Source: a virus | IMG/VR virus record: IMGVR_UViG_3300043119_000522 | Span: 1-25,239 of that record | Reading direction: 5' to 3' (one strand) | Length of the DNA: 25,239 nt | Position numbers and translations under genes: made by a program | The notes under the pieces: generated by a model | Database searches by the model: none | Told to the model about the DNA's origin: nothing | Seen by the model: only the letters and a program-made list of their open reading frames with translations | In this document: positions 3,096 to 24,540 of the stretch, one piece after another | How positions within the stretch are numbered: the first letter of the stretch is position 1 | How the letters are laid out: every line of letters begins with the position of its first letter

Positions 3096-3137
3096 CTTCC
3101 CTTTATTATAAATAGGTTACTTTTAGGAAAGCAGTTA
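3096..3137 (-). promoter_or_regulatory. Homing-gene leader: stem plus shared CTATTTATAATAAA box
   Basis: CTTTCC (3131-3126) pairs with GGGAAG (3101-3096), enclosing CTATTTATAATAAA, 2 nt before the ATG at 3093. AACTG (3136-3132) overlaps the folE stop and lies 21 nt upstream of TATAATAAA, as in the other homing gene. Confidence 0.4.
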
Positions 3138-3842
3138 GTGTATAGATAGTTGAATGTTTTTATAGAATTCTGATCTTGCAGCGTCTTCTTCTAGGAAGCA
3201 TCCAGATAATTTAGCAGTTTGCATTGCTGCACCTTGGTGTTTGATTCCTCTACAGCTTACGCAAGCATGAGTTGCATTTACCATTACCGCTACTCCTAGA
3301 TTACCTTCACAGATCTTATCTACTGCTGAATGTACTGCTACAGTTAGTTGCTCTTGAATAGCTCCTCTTCTTCCGAAATGCTCTACAATTCGGTTTAGTT
3401 TAGAAAGGCCAACTACTTTTCCGTCCTCAGAAGGGACATATGCAATAGAGACTGTTCCTCGAATTTGTTGGTGGTGATGTGAACACATTGATGTAACCGG
3501 TATATTACTTTCTTGTACAATTCCAGTGTACCCATCGGAAGGGAATGCTGTAATTCTTGTTAGTGGTTCAAATCGTCCGGCCCATAAATCGTTTACATAA
3601 GCCTTTGCAACTCTTTTAGGAGTATCAGAAGAGTTTGGATCATTCTTCCAATCACACCCTAAAGCTGAAAGGAAGTTGCCAAATGCTTCAGCAGCGTCTT
3701 CAATAATGTGTTGCTTTTCTACATCTGTTAGTCTTGCTTCTGGTCCTTCAGTTAACTGTTTTTTTGCTAACTGTGTTGAGATACCATTAGCGAATCCGGC
3801 CTGTACTAACTCAGTACCGTCGATAAATTTTTTATTTGACAT
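3135..3842 (-). CDS. folE: GTP cyclohydrolase I
   Basis: 235 residues, close to the family length of about 220. It converts GTP to 7,8-dihydroneopterin triphosphate, the first step of both folate and 7-deazaguanine synthesis. Zinc ligands are visible in CSHHHQQIRG (C120, H123) and THACVSCRGI (C194, with an extra C197). VVGLSKLNRIVEHFGRRG and the following QEQLT are the usual central FolE signature. With queD and queE nearby, it more likely feeds preQ0 synthesis than folate. It has its own promoter (3884-3913) and a structured leader resembling a preQ1-I riboswitch, so it may be controlled separately from queD and queE. Confidence 0.95.
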   Translation of the reverse strand: MSNKKFIDGTELVQAGFANGISTQLAKKQLTEGPEARLTDVEKQHIIEDAAEAFGNFLSALGCDWKNDPNSSDTPKRVAKAYVNDLWAGRFEPLTRITAFPSDGYTGIVQESNIPVTSMCSHHHQQIRGTVSIAYVPSEDGKVVGLSKLNRIVEHFGRRGAIQEQLTVAVHSAVDKICEGNLGVAVMVNATHACVSCRGIKHQGAAMQTAKLSGCFLEEDAARSEFYKNIQLSIH

Positions 3843-3844
3843 AT

Positions 3845-3876
3845 AAGATTGTTTTTATGGAGGTTCTACGACTCCG
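3845..3876 (-). promoter_or_regulatory. Candidate preQ1-I-like riboswitch in the folE leader
   Basis: The RNA reads CGGAG, loop UCGUAGAAC, CUCC, then AUAAAAACAAUC, ending about 4 nt before the ATG. GGAG/CUCC forms the P1-like hairpin. The loop closely resembles the Thermoanaerobacter preQ1-I aptamer loop as I recall it (UCGCAGUAAC), and the A-rich tail ending AACAA matches the L3 strand that crosses the pseudoknot. The second pseudoknot helix is weak here (AGA with UCU). It begins within a few nt of the expected transcript start and lies over the A-rich start region, consistent with translational control by a deazaguanine intermediate. Inferred from pattern only. Confidence 0.45.
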
Positions 3877-3883
3877 TTTATTA

Positions 3884-3913
3884 TAATATAACACTTTTTA
3901 TTTTATTTCACAA
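3884..3913 (-). promoter_or_regulatory. folE promoter (TTG-N20-TATATTA)
   Basis: TTG at 3913-3911 directly follows the stop codon of the phosphoribosyltransferase gene. TATATTA at 3890-3884 follows after exactly 20 nt. The expected transcript start is about 3879. Confidence 0.6.
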
Positions 3914-4315
3914 CTACTTATTCAAATAATCCTGTACCGGTATTGAATCCTTTCTTTCCCATGGATAGATGATCCACTCCTCTCCTTCGTGAGTTCCTGA
4001 ATACAGACTTGGTGTAAAGCAAGCTGTATGTGGCTTGTGATGTAGTACGGCAGTATATCTTGCTATTGTGTTTTGCAATGTTACTCCTGTATCACAAATA
4101 TCATCCACTACCAAAGTATCTTTTGTAATTCTTGTTGTGTAAGGAATGTTTAGTTTGTGGGAGATCATAACTGCTGGGATTAGTCCTCCTCTTTCAAGTC
4201 CTGTGATTGATTTAATCTTTAGCTCTGACTCTGTGATCTTTTCACAAAGATTCTCCACAAGACTGTTTACATCATCCCAACTTAGGAATATTTTGTTATC
4301 TATTTTGAGTGCCAT
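3914..4315 (-). CDS. Type I phosphoribosyltransferase (Gpt/Hpt-like)
   Basis: 133 residues. LVVDDICDTGVTL (about residues 68-80) is the PRPP-binding loop with two acidic residues. SITGLERGGLIPAVMISHKL (about 36-55) is the pyrophosphate-loop region (usually RGG), and WIIYPWE near the C-terminus is the hood segment typical of xanthine/hypoxanthine-guanine phosphoribosyltransferases. It would salvage a purine-like base with PRPP. Placement between queE and folE suggests guanine or a deazaguanine base as substrate, but nothing in the sequence proves this. It overlaps no neighbour; the folE promoter begins at its stop codon. Confidence 0.85.
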   Translation of the reverse strand: MALKIDNKIFLSWDDVNSLVENLCEKITESELKIKSITGLERGGLIPAVMISHKLNIPYTTRITKDTLVVDDICDTGVTLQNTIARYTAVLHHKPHTACFTPSLYSGTHEGEEWIIYPWERKDSIPVQDYLNK

Positions 4316-4817: not shown

Positions 4818-5597
4818 TTAGACTTCTCTTTGATCTTCAAATGCAATGATGTGTGGTCTCCAAGTTAATCTATAACCATTATCTCGAACCCAATCAAACA
4901 TTTTAGGATAGGATTTGAATAAAGCCTCTCTTGAATCACCAGCCGGCATGAACCAAACTTTGTCTTGAGGAATGTCTAGTACTTTAATGCATCCCATGAT
5001 CTCTGCCAATGCTTCTTGGTCCTCTCCGTTCCAGACCGGCTTCAGGTGATAGTCAGAATGGTATGCGATCATCTTAGACATTGCATCATAGTTAAGTCTT
5101 AACTTGTTATGTTGCTTGATCATTTTCTCATCCGTAACATCTCCCTGAGGCGTGAGTACACCAACCTGAGGAACAGAGTTACTGAACTTAGGAGAGATTG
5201 ATAATAGATTAATTGGGTAGTCTGTTTCCAGAAAGTGGCTACCTTCTGTTTCAATTGTAATGAAAATGTTTCTTTCATGTGCGAAATGTGTTAATTCATT
5301 TACTAATGCTGGATGCATTGTAGGTGATCCTCCTGTTAACATCATCTCTGTGATGTGAGGATTAGCATCATACATGTTGATAATGTCTTGGAAAGTGATG
5401 TGTCCTTTCTCAGGATGGATACTGGTGTACCAACTATCGCACCAACCACCTTCACCGAAGTAGCATCTATGAGTACATCCTGTTGTTCTAATAACAACTG
5501 TTGGATAACCTGCTCTACTTCCTTCTGATTGTACTGCTGTGTAAAGCTCTACAATAGGAAGTGTTTTGTTATAATCTTCAATTCTCTTTAATGCCAT
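4818..5597 (-). CDS. queE: 7-carboxy-7-deazaguanine synthase (radical SAM)
   Basis: 259 residues, slightly longer than most QueE. It converts 6-carboxy-tetrahydropterin to 7-carboxy-7-deazaguanine using S-adenosylmethionine and a 4Fe-4S cluster. The early block ELYTAVQSEGSRAGYPTVVI (about 17-36) is the QueE start signature, where SEG and the following TG precede the cluster. Cluster cysteines are C41, C45 and C53, a CX3CX7C spacing that differs from the usual CX3CX2C because of a YFGEGGW insert. MLTGGSPTMHPALV holds the GG(E/S)P SAM motif, ITIETEGS the SAM ribose site, and LSISPK the substrate strand. It overlaps the 80-residue gene upstream by 20 nt. Confidence 0.93.
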   Translation of the reverse strand: MALKRIEDYNKTLPIVELYTAVQSEGSRAGYPTVVIRTTGCTHRCYFGEGGWCDSWYTSIHPEKGHITFQDIINMYDANPHITEMMLTGGSPTMHPALVNELTHFAHERNIFITIETEGSHFLETDYPINLLSISPKFSNSVPQVGVLTPQGDVTDEKMIKQHNKLRLNYDAMSKMIAYHSDYHLKPVWNGEDQEALAEIMGCIKVLDIPQDKVWFMPAGDSREALFKSYPKMFDWVRDNGYRLTWRPHIIAFEDQREV

Positions 5598-22349: not shown

Positions 22350-22423
22350 TGGTCCATGTAGGACTCGAACCTACGACCTTCTCGTTATGAGCGAGCTGCT
22401 CTAACCATCTGAGCTAAAGGACC
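22350..22423 (-). tRNA. tRNA with CAT anticodon (Met or Ile2)
   Basis: 74 nt, cloverleaf complete: TAGCTCAGATGGTTAGAGC D-arm, anticodon stem CTCGC-T CATAA-type loop (CTCATAA; anticodon CAT), T-arm GTAGG-TTCGAGT-CCTAC. Acceptor pairs GGTCCTT with ATGGACC (one T-T mismatch). No encoded CCA. It could be elongator Met or Ile decoding AUA after C34 modification; sequence alone does not decide. Confidence 0.9.
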
Positions 22424-22428
22424 ATTAG

Positions 22429-22502
22429 TAGCGAATGGCAGAATCGAACTACCCTTCATCCGGCTTATGAGACCGGTAAGTTCACCAGAACTTTAACTCG
22501 CA
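22429..22502 (-). tRNA. Second tRNA with CAT anticodon, unpaired position 1-72
   Basis: 74 nt: anticodon arm CCGGT-CTCATAA-GCCGG, T-arm GGTAG-TTCGATT-CTGCC, D-arm AGTT/AACT. Acceptor TGCGAGT/ATTCGCT leaves a T1-T72 mismatch, recalling the unpaired end of initiator tRNAs, but the three G-C pairs of the initiator anticodon stem are absent. Probably Met or Ile2. Confidence 0.8.
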
Positions 22503-22505
22503 ATA

Positions 22506-22582
22506 TGGCGGTCCGTACGGGACTCGAACCCGTGATCTCCTACGTGACAGGCAGGCGTCCACTCCAACTGGACTGACAGACC
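22506..22582 (-). tRNA. tRNA-Asp (GTC), CCA encoded
   Basis: Acceptor GGTCTGT/ACGGACC, discriminator G followed by encoded CCA, anticodon arm CCTGC-CTGTCAC-GTAGG (GTC), T-arm CACGGG-TTCGAGT-CCCGT. Among the tRNAs here this is the only one with an encoded CCA. Confidence 0.93.
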
Positions 22583-22746
22583 AAAATTAAAAACAACAAG
22601 TTACACAATTTACTCTACACCAAACTTAACCTTCAAGTAAATCCCTTCGACTAACTACTCGTTCGGTTCTTTCGTTAGCCTCTCTAGTACTCTTTCAAGC
22701 ATTAGGATTAGTAGCCTACCAGTCTTACCTCACTTTATTATTTTTG
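22583..22746 (-). other. tRNA spacer between Cys and Asp
   Basis: 164 nt without a convincing gene. CTAAC/GTTAG can enclose a GAAAGAACCGAACGAGTA loop (about 22650-22680). No complete tRNA is seen. Confidence 0.4.
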
Positions 22747-22818
22747 TGGAGCTATGGAGAATCGAACTCCAATTTATGAATTGCAAATCCATTGTAATAG
22801 CCGTTATACTATAACCCC
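22747..22818 (-). tRNA. tRNA-Cys (GCA)
   Basis: 72 nt: acceptor GGGGTTA/TAGCTCC, D-arm with TAGTATAACGGCTA, anticodon arm ATGGA-TTTGCAA-TTCAT (GCA), T-arm TGGAG-TTCGATT-CTCCA. No encoded CCA. Confidence 0.93.
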
Positions 22819-22823
22819 AATTA

Positions 22824-22947
22824 AATTAAATAAATAAGTCTTCGTCTCTCCTAGCTGGCCCACTTGAAGATTACTCTTCGTGCCCGACTCGAACGGGAAT
22901 GCTAGCGACTCAATCCAGCTTGCCCATAAATGGGTATTTATTTAATT
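22824..22947 (-). ncRNA. Structured tRNA-like spacer element
   Basis: A perfect 13-bp inverted repeat, AATTAAATAAATA with TATTTATTTAATT (22947-22935 and 22836-22824), encloses an inner AGCTGG/CCAGCT stem (22920-22915 and 22858-22853), a clear T-arm CCCG-TTCGAGT-CGGG (22897-22883) and a GAAGA-GTAA-TCTTC hairpin. The strand after the T-arm does not pair with any upstream acceptor, so this is not a normal tRNA. It may be a decayed or rearranged tRNA kept as a spacer. Confidence 0.4.
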
Positions 22948-22950
22948 TTG

Positions 22951-23022
22951 TACTACCGAAGGGAATCGAACCCTCGTTTCAACAGTGAAAGTGTTGTGTC
23001 CTAGCCGTTAGACGACGGTAGC
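22951..23022 (-). tRNA. tRNA-Glu (TTC)
   Basis: 72 nt: acceptor GCTACCG/CGGTAGT (G1-T72 wobble), anticodon arm CAACA-CTTTCAC-TGTTG (TTC), T-arm GAGGG-TTCGATT-CCCTT. D-arm TCGTCTAACGGCTAGGAC is typical of Glu. Confidence 0.94.
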
Positions 23023-23206
23023 AAATTAAAAATAAAACACTGCTGTGGAGCAACACCACAATCCGACTTAAGGTTTTCATCAGGTGGATAGCTAATCCGG
23101 ACTTATTCCCTTCTCACCGCAAAACAGATAATACGTACTCTCTGAATACTCTTGGTGTCGTGATAACAGGTGCTGGTTAACCTATTTTCGTCATGTTGTA
23201 TTTTAG
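23023..23206 (-). other. tRNA spacer between Gly and Glu
   Basis: 184 nt without a recognised gene. A GTGG-TGTTGCT-CCAC hairpin lies near the Glu end. Contains CTGATGA, but no hammerhead core (see rejected items). Confidence 0.4.
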
Positions 23207-23277
23207 AGCAGATAGTCGGGATCGAACCGACATCACCTGGTTGGAAGCCAGAAATAATACCATTATACGATATCTGC
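23207..23277 (-). tRNA. tRNA-Gly (TCC)
   Basis: 71 nt: acceptor GCAGATA/TATCTGC with discriminator T, anticodon arm TCTGG-CTTCCAA-CCAGG (TCC), T-arm GTCGG-TTCGATC-CCGAC. No encoded CCA. Confidence 0.94.
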
Positions 23278-23375
23278 AGTTTGAGGTTGAGAAATCCTCA
23301 GTGTTAGTCTTTACTAGTTGTTGCAACAACCGTGTAGCCACTCTATTTTCCTTTCTCAAGGGAACAACACTTTTG

Positions 23376-23447
23376 AGCCTCTACAAGGAATCGAACCCTG
23401 TTGTCTTGTGTACAAAACAAGTGCATCACCATTTATGCTTTAGAGGC
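23376..23447 (-). tRNA. tRNA-Thr (TGT)
   Basis: 72 nt: acceptor GCCTCTA/TAGAGGC with discriminator T, anticodon arm CTTGT-TTTGTAC-ACAAG (TGT), T-arm CAGGG-TTCGATT-CCTTG. The spacer before the next tRNA holds a palindrome GTTGTTGCAACAAC. Confidence 0.92.
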
Positions 23448-23454
23448 AGATAAA

Positions 23455-23520
23455 TTAGAGTGGGTGTCGGAATCCCTTCTGCAGGTTAGCCCCTGCTACT
23501 TTACTATAAGCTAACTCTAA
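23455..23520 (-). ncRNA. Degenerate tRNA-like element
   Basis: 66 nt. Acceptor-like strands TTAGAGT and ACTCTAA pair perfectly over 7 bp. A D-arm-like GCTT-ATAGTA-AAGT and an anticodon-like GCAGG-GGCTAA-CCTGC arm follow, but the loop has 6 nt, the D-loop lacks GG, and the T-arm region GGGATTCCGACACCC lacks TTCRA. It is either a decaying tRNA or a small tRNA mimic. No anticodon can be assigned. Confidence 0.45.
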
Positions 23521-23887
23521 TTTTTTTATGTAGGCGATCAGTCGCTTGGCGTCCGATCCTTCTGTCCAATTAAGGAACTAATATCCGGTAATCCGATCCT
23601 ACTATATTTTAACACATCCATCAAGATTGGGATAATCGTATAGGCCCAAACCCCTATACTCCATTCAGTCACCTCTCACAATTACTGCGGATGCTTAATG
23701 ATTATCTTACTCAACAAACATAACACTTCTTGATAGTGTTGTAATACTTCTCACTTCTGTGACTCTCTTTTGCATGTCACCTGTGCGTTGAGCTTATTAC
23801 ATCTCTTTATTAGCTTCTTATCCCTCACTCGAAGTATCCAAGCTGTTAGAATAATATTACCTGTTTGTCTTTCTATGTGTTATTTTG
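23521..23887 (-). other. Long noncoding spacer in the tRNA operon
   Basis: 367 nt with no good reading frame or tRNA. Hairpins include GCGA-CTGA-TCGC, GTATAGG-GGTTTGGG-CCTATAC (23659-23638) and AACACT-ATCAAGA-AGTGTT. GGATCGGA occurs twice (about 23540-23600). It is far longer than usual tRNA spacers and may hold an RNA of unknown kind. Confidence 0.4.
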
Positions 23888-23960
23888 TACCCAAGGAGGG
23901 ATTCGAACCCTCAGTATCTAGTTTCTAAGACTAGCGTGTCTACCGTTCCACCACTCGGGC
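23888..23960 (-). tRNA. tRNA-Leu (TAG) with short variable region
   Basis: 73 nt: acceptor GCCCGAG/CTTGGGT, D-arm TGGTGGAACGGTAGACACG typical of Leu, anticodon arm CTAGT-CTTAGAA-ACTAG (TAG), T-arm GAGGG-TTCGAAT-CCCTC. The variable region is only about 5 nt (ATACT) where tRNA-Leu normally has a long arm. First tRNA of the operon, about 10 nt after the expected transcript start. Confidence 0.9.
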
Positions 23961-23978
23961 AATTAATTATTAATACTT

Positions 23979-24008
23979 AAAGATACTAAATTAATTCTAT
24001 GTGAGCAA
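23979..24008 (-). promoter_or_regulatory. tRNA operon promoter (TTG-N20-TATCTTT)
   Basis: TTG at 24008-24006 lies in the final codons of the 105-residue gene (AAA GTT GCT); TATCTTT at 23985-23979 follows after 20 nt and continues AAGTATTAAT as in the promoter at 24331. Confidence 0.65.
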
Positions 24009-24303
24009 CTTTTTTGTCATTTATTTCCCGACTATCCAATATTGCTTTTATAGACTCTAGAACTGTCTCAGCATTAAACTCTCTATCCTCGTAGAGAGTT
24101 ATTTCACTTCTAATAACATTCAGTAACTTCATTGCTTCTATATCTCCAAAACGTTTGTTTAAGTTCTCAGCATGTTCGCAAGCTTCTATATGATCTTTGA
24201 AGTTAGATATAAGATGACCATCTCTATATACTCCCCATCCTAGTGAATAGTTATGGTAGAACTTTTCCCTAACATAGTACTGCCTCTTTGTGTATGCTCT
24301 CAT
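23986..24303 (-). CDS. Hypothetical protein upstream of tRNA operon
   Basis: 105 residues. N-terminal basic strands (KRQYYVREKF), LGWGVYRDGHLISNFKDHIE (about 21-40) reminiscent of small domains that show residues as W-x-V-x-x-D-G repeats, then helices. No firm family. Its last codons carry the -33 box of the tRNA promoter. Confidence 0.6.
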   Translation of the reverse strand: MRAYTKRQYYVREKFYHNYSLGWGVYRDGHLISNFKDHIEACEHAENLNKRFGDIEAMKLLNVIRSEITLYEDREFNAETVLESIKAILDSREINDKKVAHIELI

Positions 24304-24330
24304 CTTTATTTGTCTTAATTAATAATACTT

Positions 24331-24360
24331 AAAGATACGAACTATATTTCTAGTATCCAA
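24331..24360 (-). promoter_or_regulatory. Promoter (TTG-N20-TATCTTT)
   Basis: TTGGATACT at 24360 onward, GTTCG then TATCTTTAAG (24337-24331), spacing 20. Nearly identical to the promoter at 24823-24852. Confidence 0.75.
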
Positions 24361-24367
24361 GCTTTTT

Positions 24368-24454
24368 TTAATCTTTTTTATCTTTTTTATGAATTGTTAT
24401 TCTAACTCCAAAAAACATAAAGAATACAACTACACAAATAAAACCTATTACCAT
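24368..24454 (-). CDS. Very small membrane peptide
   Basis: 28 residues: MVIGFICVVVFFMFFGVRIT then a basic tail IHKKDKKD. One membrane segment, N-out or N-in uncertain. It begins 15 nt after the second tRNA-Cys with an A-rich leader (AAAAAAATAAATTATG). Reading frame is real, expression is a guess. Confidence 0.4.
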   Translation of the reverse strand: MVIGFICVVVFFMFFGVRITIHKKDKKD

Positions 24455-24468
24455 AATTTATTTTTTTG

Positions 24469-24540
24469 AGGTCCTCCAGAGAATCGAACTCTGAATCTCA
24501 CATTTTGCAGACATGAAGCTTAACCATCAGCCTGAGGACC
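24469..24540 (-). tRNA. tRNA-Cys (GCA), second copy
   Basis: 72 nt: acceptor GGTCCTC/GAGGACC, discriminator T, T-arm CAGAG-TTCGATT-CTCTG. Anticodon arm CATGT-CTGCAAA-ATGTG gives GCA but has two G-T pairs, and the D stem is only about 3 bp. Divergent from the other Cys tRNA and separated from the main cluster. Confidence 0.8.

Follow-up and report, generated by a model that had tools for sequence, protein, structure and literature searches.

The question raised by this locus is whether the short hairpin lying immediately before the start codon of a phage folE gene is a riboswitch, and if so, which ligand it would sense and how it would act. The window, i.e. the whole stretch of 25,239 nucleotides analysed here (positions 1 to 25,239 of the IMG/VR virus record IMGVR_UViG_3300043119_000522), bears on its minus strand a gene for GTP cyclohydrolase I, in whose leader the original prediction had placed a preQ1-I-like riboswitch built on GGAG and CUCC arms. 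Read on the minus strand, this leader is ...UAUAUUAUAAUAAAC-GGAG-UCGUAGAAC-CUCC-AUAAAAA-CAAUCUUAU-AUG (also written with UUAUAUUAUAAUAAAC directly 5' of GGAG), and the element, GGAG-UCGUAGAAC-CUCC-AUAAAAA-CAAU, occupies positions 3875-3848, its 3' end being 5 nt before the folE AUG. The surrounding genes and the parts of the element are as follows.

3135..3842, minus strand: folE, GTP cyclohydrolase I of 235 aa (PF01227, E=4e-43), AUG at 3842-3840; the gene regulated in our proposal
3848..3851, minus strand: pseudoknot 3' strand, C30 A31 A32 U33; C30, at 3851, pairs with G11
3852..3858, minus strand: A-rich strand L3, AUAAAAA, whose last base is A29
3859..3862, minus strand: P1 3' strand, CUCC, whose first base is C16
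3863..3871, minus strand: aptamer loop UCGUAGAAC, read as U6 C7 G8 U9 A10 G11 A13 A14 C15 in Tte numbering
3872..3875, minus strand: P1 5' strand, GGAG, ending in G5, which is the pocket floor; P1 pairs conserved at 99.7%, with compensatory changes
3885..3913, minus strand: promoter-like boxes TTGTGA and TATATT with 17 nt between them (consensus scan), lying 5' of the aptamer, with the start predicted near 3877
3914..4315, minus strand: phosphoribosyltransferase-like ORF directly upstream of the folE leader (PF00156, E=8e-7)
4818..5597, minus strand: QueE-like radical SAM protein (PF04055, E=1.2e-6, just under the family cut-off), positioned like QueE of phage immuto
5810..6271, minus strand: QueD-like 6-pyruvoyl tetrahydropterin synthase (PF01242, E=8.8e-13)

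Elsewhere in the window, at 22350-24540 on the minus strand, nine tRNA genes are clustered.

The window sequence by itself would not settle the identity of the element. Folded as a single sequence, the leader forms only the 4-bp P1 (-3.9 kcal/mol, z -0.61), and thus energy alone cannot tell the element from chance. Moreover, U9 stands against U33 in this copy, where pair 9-33 is not possible and one sure canonical P2 pair is left; the doubt about a weak second helix, expressed from the beginning, is therefore justified for the window copy, but not for the family, in which pair 9-33 covaries. With promoter-like boxes ending at 3885, the start of the aptamer would fall at +1 or close to it. This agrees with the earlier claim of a start close to that of the transcript, and a TATATT-like box is visible 5' of the element in most relatives among the FolE-similarity loci, but sigma-70-like box matches in the window leader are no commoner in the consensus scan than in shuffles. 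The Rfam model RF00522, proposed as a check, found no match at gathering in the window and none at E<=10 on the folE leader.

As the single sequence is indecisive, the evidence is mainly comparative. By FolE protein similarity alone 80 viral loci were gathered, and the same element, counted by eye, is present in about 56 of the 79 folE leaders that are readable, so that the GGAG...CUCC element of the original prediction is both found in the window and conserved outside it; many other leaders of this set keep the promoter-like box with the element absent. A 22-letter pattern matches viral contigs in at least 119 stretches, and has only 7 matches in bacterial and archaeal genomes amounting to 257 Gb, the host Bacteroidota genomes being covered by this exact pattern only. 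Those 7 matches were rejected as chance, with no ATG-started ORF in range and with RF00522 empty in 4 of their genomes. A covariance model gives one or two strong copies in each phage record, with E below 1e-6 in almost every case; the 22-bit matches of this model that were examined in phiST and phi13:1 (at 26282 and 24191) resemble terminators rather than elements. It should be noted that most elements were gathered with patterns fixing many pocket positions, where conservation counts are partly built in, and the protein-only set, unaffected by such selection, is the cleaner evidence for these positions. Altogether the element is real, as confirmed by its conservation. A chance resemblance in an AT-rich leader, to which the weak single-sequence fold and the lack of an Rfam match in the window would lend themselves, is already refuted by the comparative data, namely the conservation and enrichment across those viral stretches and a linkage exclusive to one pathway. 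The carriers are phages of marine and freshwater Bacteroidota, and the tiny RNA is almost certainly a form of preQ1 riboswitch.

The pattern of variation among the copies is that of a paired RNA. The arms vary jointly (GGAG/CUCC, UGAG/CUCA, UGUG/CACA, AGUG/CACU, GGUG/CACC) around a loop that is nearly always UCGUAGAAC or UCGUAGCAC. P1 is paired at 99.2% over 65 aligned elements with 43 double-change cells, against 30-66% in slid controls, and at 99.7% over 74 gap-free elements; across the two sets AU/GC/UA and UA/AU exchanges occur and the slid controls are 25-67% paired. For pair 9-33, the 74 elements have U-A in 38, U-G in 12, C-G in 8, G-C in 1 and no pair in 15 (79.7% paired), and the covariation is 0.47 versus at most 0.12 when slid; G33 accompanies C9 in 8/8 elements and the comparable U9 in 12/48. 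These counts are made without phylogeny correction, P1 has only 4 bp of which two are invariant, and P2 generally consists of two canonical pairs. An alternative pseudoknot register, 8-32/9-31/11-30, was rejected for showing no covariation. As for the pocket, the covarying P1 hairpin is closed by an invariant G5-C16, G11-C30 is invariant as well, C7 is found in 86/89 collected elements, and the bases U6 in L1 and A29 in L3 are invariant, their ligand-edge contacts and the packing of adenines against P1 being inferred and not observable from sequence. The dinucleotide AC just before the P1 3' strand, with C15 of the loop UCGUAGAAC as the putative ligand-pairing base, is present in the window, in 89/89 collected elements (partly pattern-selected) and in the protein-selected set, with the exception of two loci having CC. 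In these two (L049:1933-1969 and L077:1934-1970) the variant UCGUAGCCC is seen, with C in place of the A before the ligand-pairing C, and it may be altered or decayed. Accordingly, the comparison with related phages that had been suggested, for the loop and for P1, comes out in favour of the aptamer: loop and pocket are conserved and P1 covaries.

Such data also bear on two readings without a ligand. A short inverted repeat near a promoter-like box could be a DNA operator, to which a transcription factor would bind downstream of the promoter; however, single genomes have two copies with different arms (UGAG/CUCA and AGUG/CACU in L038), both of which one factor could hardly read, the pairing is kept, and there is conservation also of the loop, of the A-rich strand and of the AUG spacing (28-36 nt), which makes this explanation most improbable. 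Alternatively, the leader hairpin or pseudoknot might be the binding site of a protein, of the phage or of the host, that represses translation of the pathway genes. Hairpin or pseudoknot operators near start codons occur in phages, for example in T4 gene 32, and the loop is highly conserved, which counts for a protein operator; yet conservation falls on the bases of the preQ1-I pocket, the covariation or persistence of pair 9-33 and of the A-rich strand is what that fold shows, and bacterial preQ1 aptamers are recovered by a model built on the phage elements only, hence we consider a protein operator very unlikely.

The genes headed by the element point to a single pathway. Every element with readable downstream genes heads a 7-deazaguanine gene or operon, and the assignment of the controlled gene to preQ0/preQ1 synthesis is borne out by PF01227 for the window folE and by the relatives, without exception. 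By motif, the distinct copies comprise 46 before folE, 53 at small-protein operon heads, 3 before queD, 2 before queE and 2 before folE2; the unclassified ones stand before two further small proteins, a lipoprotein at the head of the same operon and a small protein that is truncated, or lie at contig edges. In many phages a second copy, 2-3.6 kb upstream of folE, precedes the gene of a small membrane-like protein (67-107 aa) at the head of a queD-queE operon; queD or queE follows the small protein wherever the sequence suffices. Copies lie directly before queE in L009 and L112, and directly before queD in L091, L101 and L151. Moreover, at L147:8367-8942 (PF02649, E=1.6e-25) and L185:3064-4062 (by sequence motif only) a FolE2-like protein is encoded in place of FolE with the element kept, the gene occupying the folE position after the phosphoribosyltransferase gene. 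Short of metabolic control, it is difficult to see why the element would stay with the pathway when FolE is swapped for the unrelated FolE2.

The small protein at the operon head merits a description of its own. It has the motif PDPKLHQxxSFIKSxIRI...EIVGIxEELV and a hydrophobic C-terminal half (L038:2780-2983, L002:1412-1735 and about 50 other loci), has no match in Pfam or PHROG, and is perhaps tied to the 7-deazaguanine pathway.

The ligand can be approached through the distribution of QueF, the enzyme that makes preQ1. The element is present at E<1e-4 in 33/38 phage records, and QueF in 33/33 of these; G016, G017, phiST and phi13:1 have no element, no QueF over the cut-off and no QueC, and G032 has QueF and no element, its contig stopping before the queD operon. 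The association, observed inside this one lineage of phages, gives a Fisher value of 6.8e-5 (38 phage records, relatedness uncorrected). An element-bearing record of 95 kb, G008, has QueF and no QueC match; phiSM, an unrelated phage, lacks the element and has a QueF of a different kind. Flavobacterium phage immuto, which is in culture, has the element before folE (L028) and encodes QueC, QueD, QueE, QueF, FolE and the DNA transglycosylase DpdA. Since the element-bearing records all encode QueF, and since Streptococcus phage Dp-1, with QueF and DpdA, has dPreQ1 in its DNA (PMC6884629), preQ1 is the likely ligand; without binding data preQ0 is not excluded. In fact, the same aptamer fold might have preQ0 or another 7-deazaguanine (CDG, 7-amido) as its physiological ligand: the four element-less records without QueF are also without QueC, so that co-occurrence cannot separate preQ0 from preQ1, the phage loops differ in length from the bacterial ones, and the Bsu and Tte type II aptamers bind preQ0 too (PMC11625349). 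However, the pocket bases are identical to those of type II aptamers, whose preference is for preQ1 (by a factor of 17 in Tte; PMC11625349), and QueF accompanies the element in all bearing records including the one without a QueC match; a physiological ligand other than preQ1 is thus considered unlikely, though it cannot be dismissed.

With preQ1 as the likely ligand, the mode of action can be inferred from the place of the element. The distance from the element start to the AUG is only 28-36 nt, which leaves no room for a terminator, and control of initiation is therefore the natural reading. Bacteroidota are without Shine-Dalgarno (SD) sequences. In F. johnsoniae, initiation is favoured by A at -3, -6, -12 and -13 together with a lack of structure, with no SD (PMC6847099). 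In the operon-head group an A-run is located at -12 to -8, and only a few bases separate the end of the pseudoknot 3' strand from the AUG; since both lie in the initiation region, closure of the pseudoknot would structure just that region. It is proposed that the mRNA would start close to the aptamer and that, when free preQ1 accumulates, C15 would pair with it, upon which the loop and the A-rich strand would close into an H-type pseudoknot (G11-C30, usually with 9-33) that stacks on P1. Structure would then extend over the A-rich strand and on to about 3-9 nt before the AUG, the 30S subunit could not load, and FolE (QueD/QueE or FolE2 in relatives) would no longer be made, which amounts to a feedback OFF switch. 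To our knowledge, all tested members of the preQ1-I class are OFF switches. The ligand identity, the OFF direction and the block of the SD-less initiation region are inferences, and that preQ1 binding causes the closure is assumed by analogy with the known class. In this way the phages would probably switch off the modified-guanine genes for their DNA once enough has been made.

To sum up, the reading as a preQ1-I-like riboswitch is supported comparatively by the pocket, the P1 covariation and the linkage to 7-deazaguanine genes, with no ligand data. We consider it quite likely that the element is a phage-borne variant of the preQ1-I type II riboswitch, SD-independent and acting in feedback as a translational OFF switch, where ligand binding and gene control are inferred. 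With less assurance, though still with the balance in its favour, a phage-specific preQ1-I subtype may be proposed, SD-less and locking the A-rich initiation region, with a feedback regulon of folE/folE2, queD, queE and the small membrane protein. No prior description of an SD-less element of phages was found in the literature searched, the coverage of which is incomplete; that such an SD-less, phage-borne variant of type II is new seems to us a well-founded expectation, and its formal membership awaits ligand binding. Riboswitches in non-SD organisms are predicted in a 2024 review of the preQ1 family, where finding them is named a challenge (PMC11625349), and the element is a widespread and conserved candidate for one, for which an isolated phage exists (Flavobacterium phage immuto, host LMO8). 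If this is true, the phage senses its own DNA-modification precursor. The study of such modification systems (PMC6884629), where riboswitches are unmentioned (0 occurrences), left open whether the substrate of phage QueF is free preQ0 or the base once it is in the DNA; if free preQ1 is what a riboswitch senses, infected cells should contain a pool of it, which bears on the question of the QueF substrate. The Dp-1-type 7-deazaguanine DNA modification systems (QueF, DpdA) have the same pathway genes as the element-bearing phages (PMC6884629).

The relation to the known riboswitches has to be judged first by RF00522, the gathering cut-off of which is 39 bits. This model gives nothing at gathering on eight loci and no phage record over the cut-off; in two phage records its best match is the element, with 21.8 and 14.6 bits, and a second match in G008 (28346-28388) was set aside as it precedes an unrelated gene. 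In 299 Bacillota genomes, the RF00522 search gives type II aptamers before queF, queT and yhhQ (gene names read from translation), for example GGCGG-UCGUAGCCAC-CCGCC-UUAAAAAA-CAAGGAG in L255 and GGCGG-UCGCAGCCUAC-CCGCC-UCAAAAAAA-CAAGGAGG in L264. Because these bacterial aptamers (L252-L265), with 27-34 bits, are also below the cut-off, the failure on the phage element is weak evidence; type II cannot be judged fairly by a 39-bit threshold, and the result suggests that, at the current cut-off, many type II members probably go unannotated in Rfam. In the reciprocal direction, the phage-only model places 6 of its 8 best matches in 81 kb of Bacillota DNA exactly on RF00522 aptamers, with weak scores of 10.9-17 bits. 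Canonical SD-type patterns in viral contigs yielded one convincing case, the rest being chance matches. This case, in a 9-kb viral contig (L272:2484-2540), is a type II aptamer of the canonical SD type, GGUCGCAGUCACCCGCUUUAGAAAAAAACAAGGAGG, that precedes the gene of a QueT-like transporter, and it is not called by Rfam.

Class I type II is defined by AC before the P1 3' strand, with a pocket made of G5-C16, U6, C7-G11-C30 and the L3 adenines (PMC11625349), and the C9-G33 pair is present in the Tte type II structure (PMC10622847). The pocket bases of the phage element equal those of seven bacterial type II aptamers. More specifically, it has in common with preQ1-I type II (Tte, Bsu; RF00522) the G5-C16 floor, U6, C7, G11-C30, AC with C15, and A27-A29 (PMC11625349, PMC10622847), as well as the location before 7-deazaguanine genes and, in the family though not in the window copy, the register of pair 9-33. 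Types I and III are H-type pseudoknots with the same alpha pocket, whereas their signatures, UC before the P1 3' strand with binding of two preQ1 in type I, and a pyrimidine-rich loop with a buried AAGG in type III, are absent in the phage element (PMC11625349). When the loop UCGUAGAAC is set beside bacterial type II loops such as UCGUAGCCAC, the phage loop is usually 9 nt versus 10-11 in the bacterial examples. Moreover, unlike bacterial type II, the phage form has a 4-bp P1, an A-rich strand of usually 7 nt and no AAGG or SD (AAGGAG) in its tail, is unrecognised by RF00522, and is carried by phages, where it controls folE, folE2, queD and queE.
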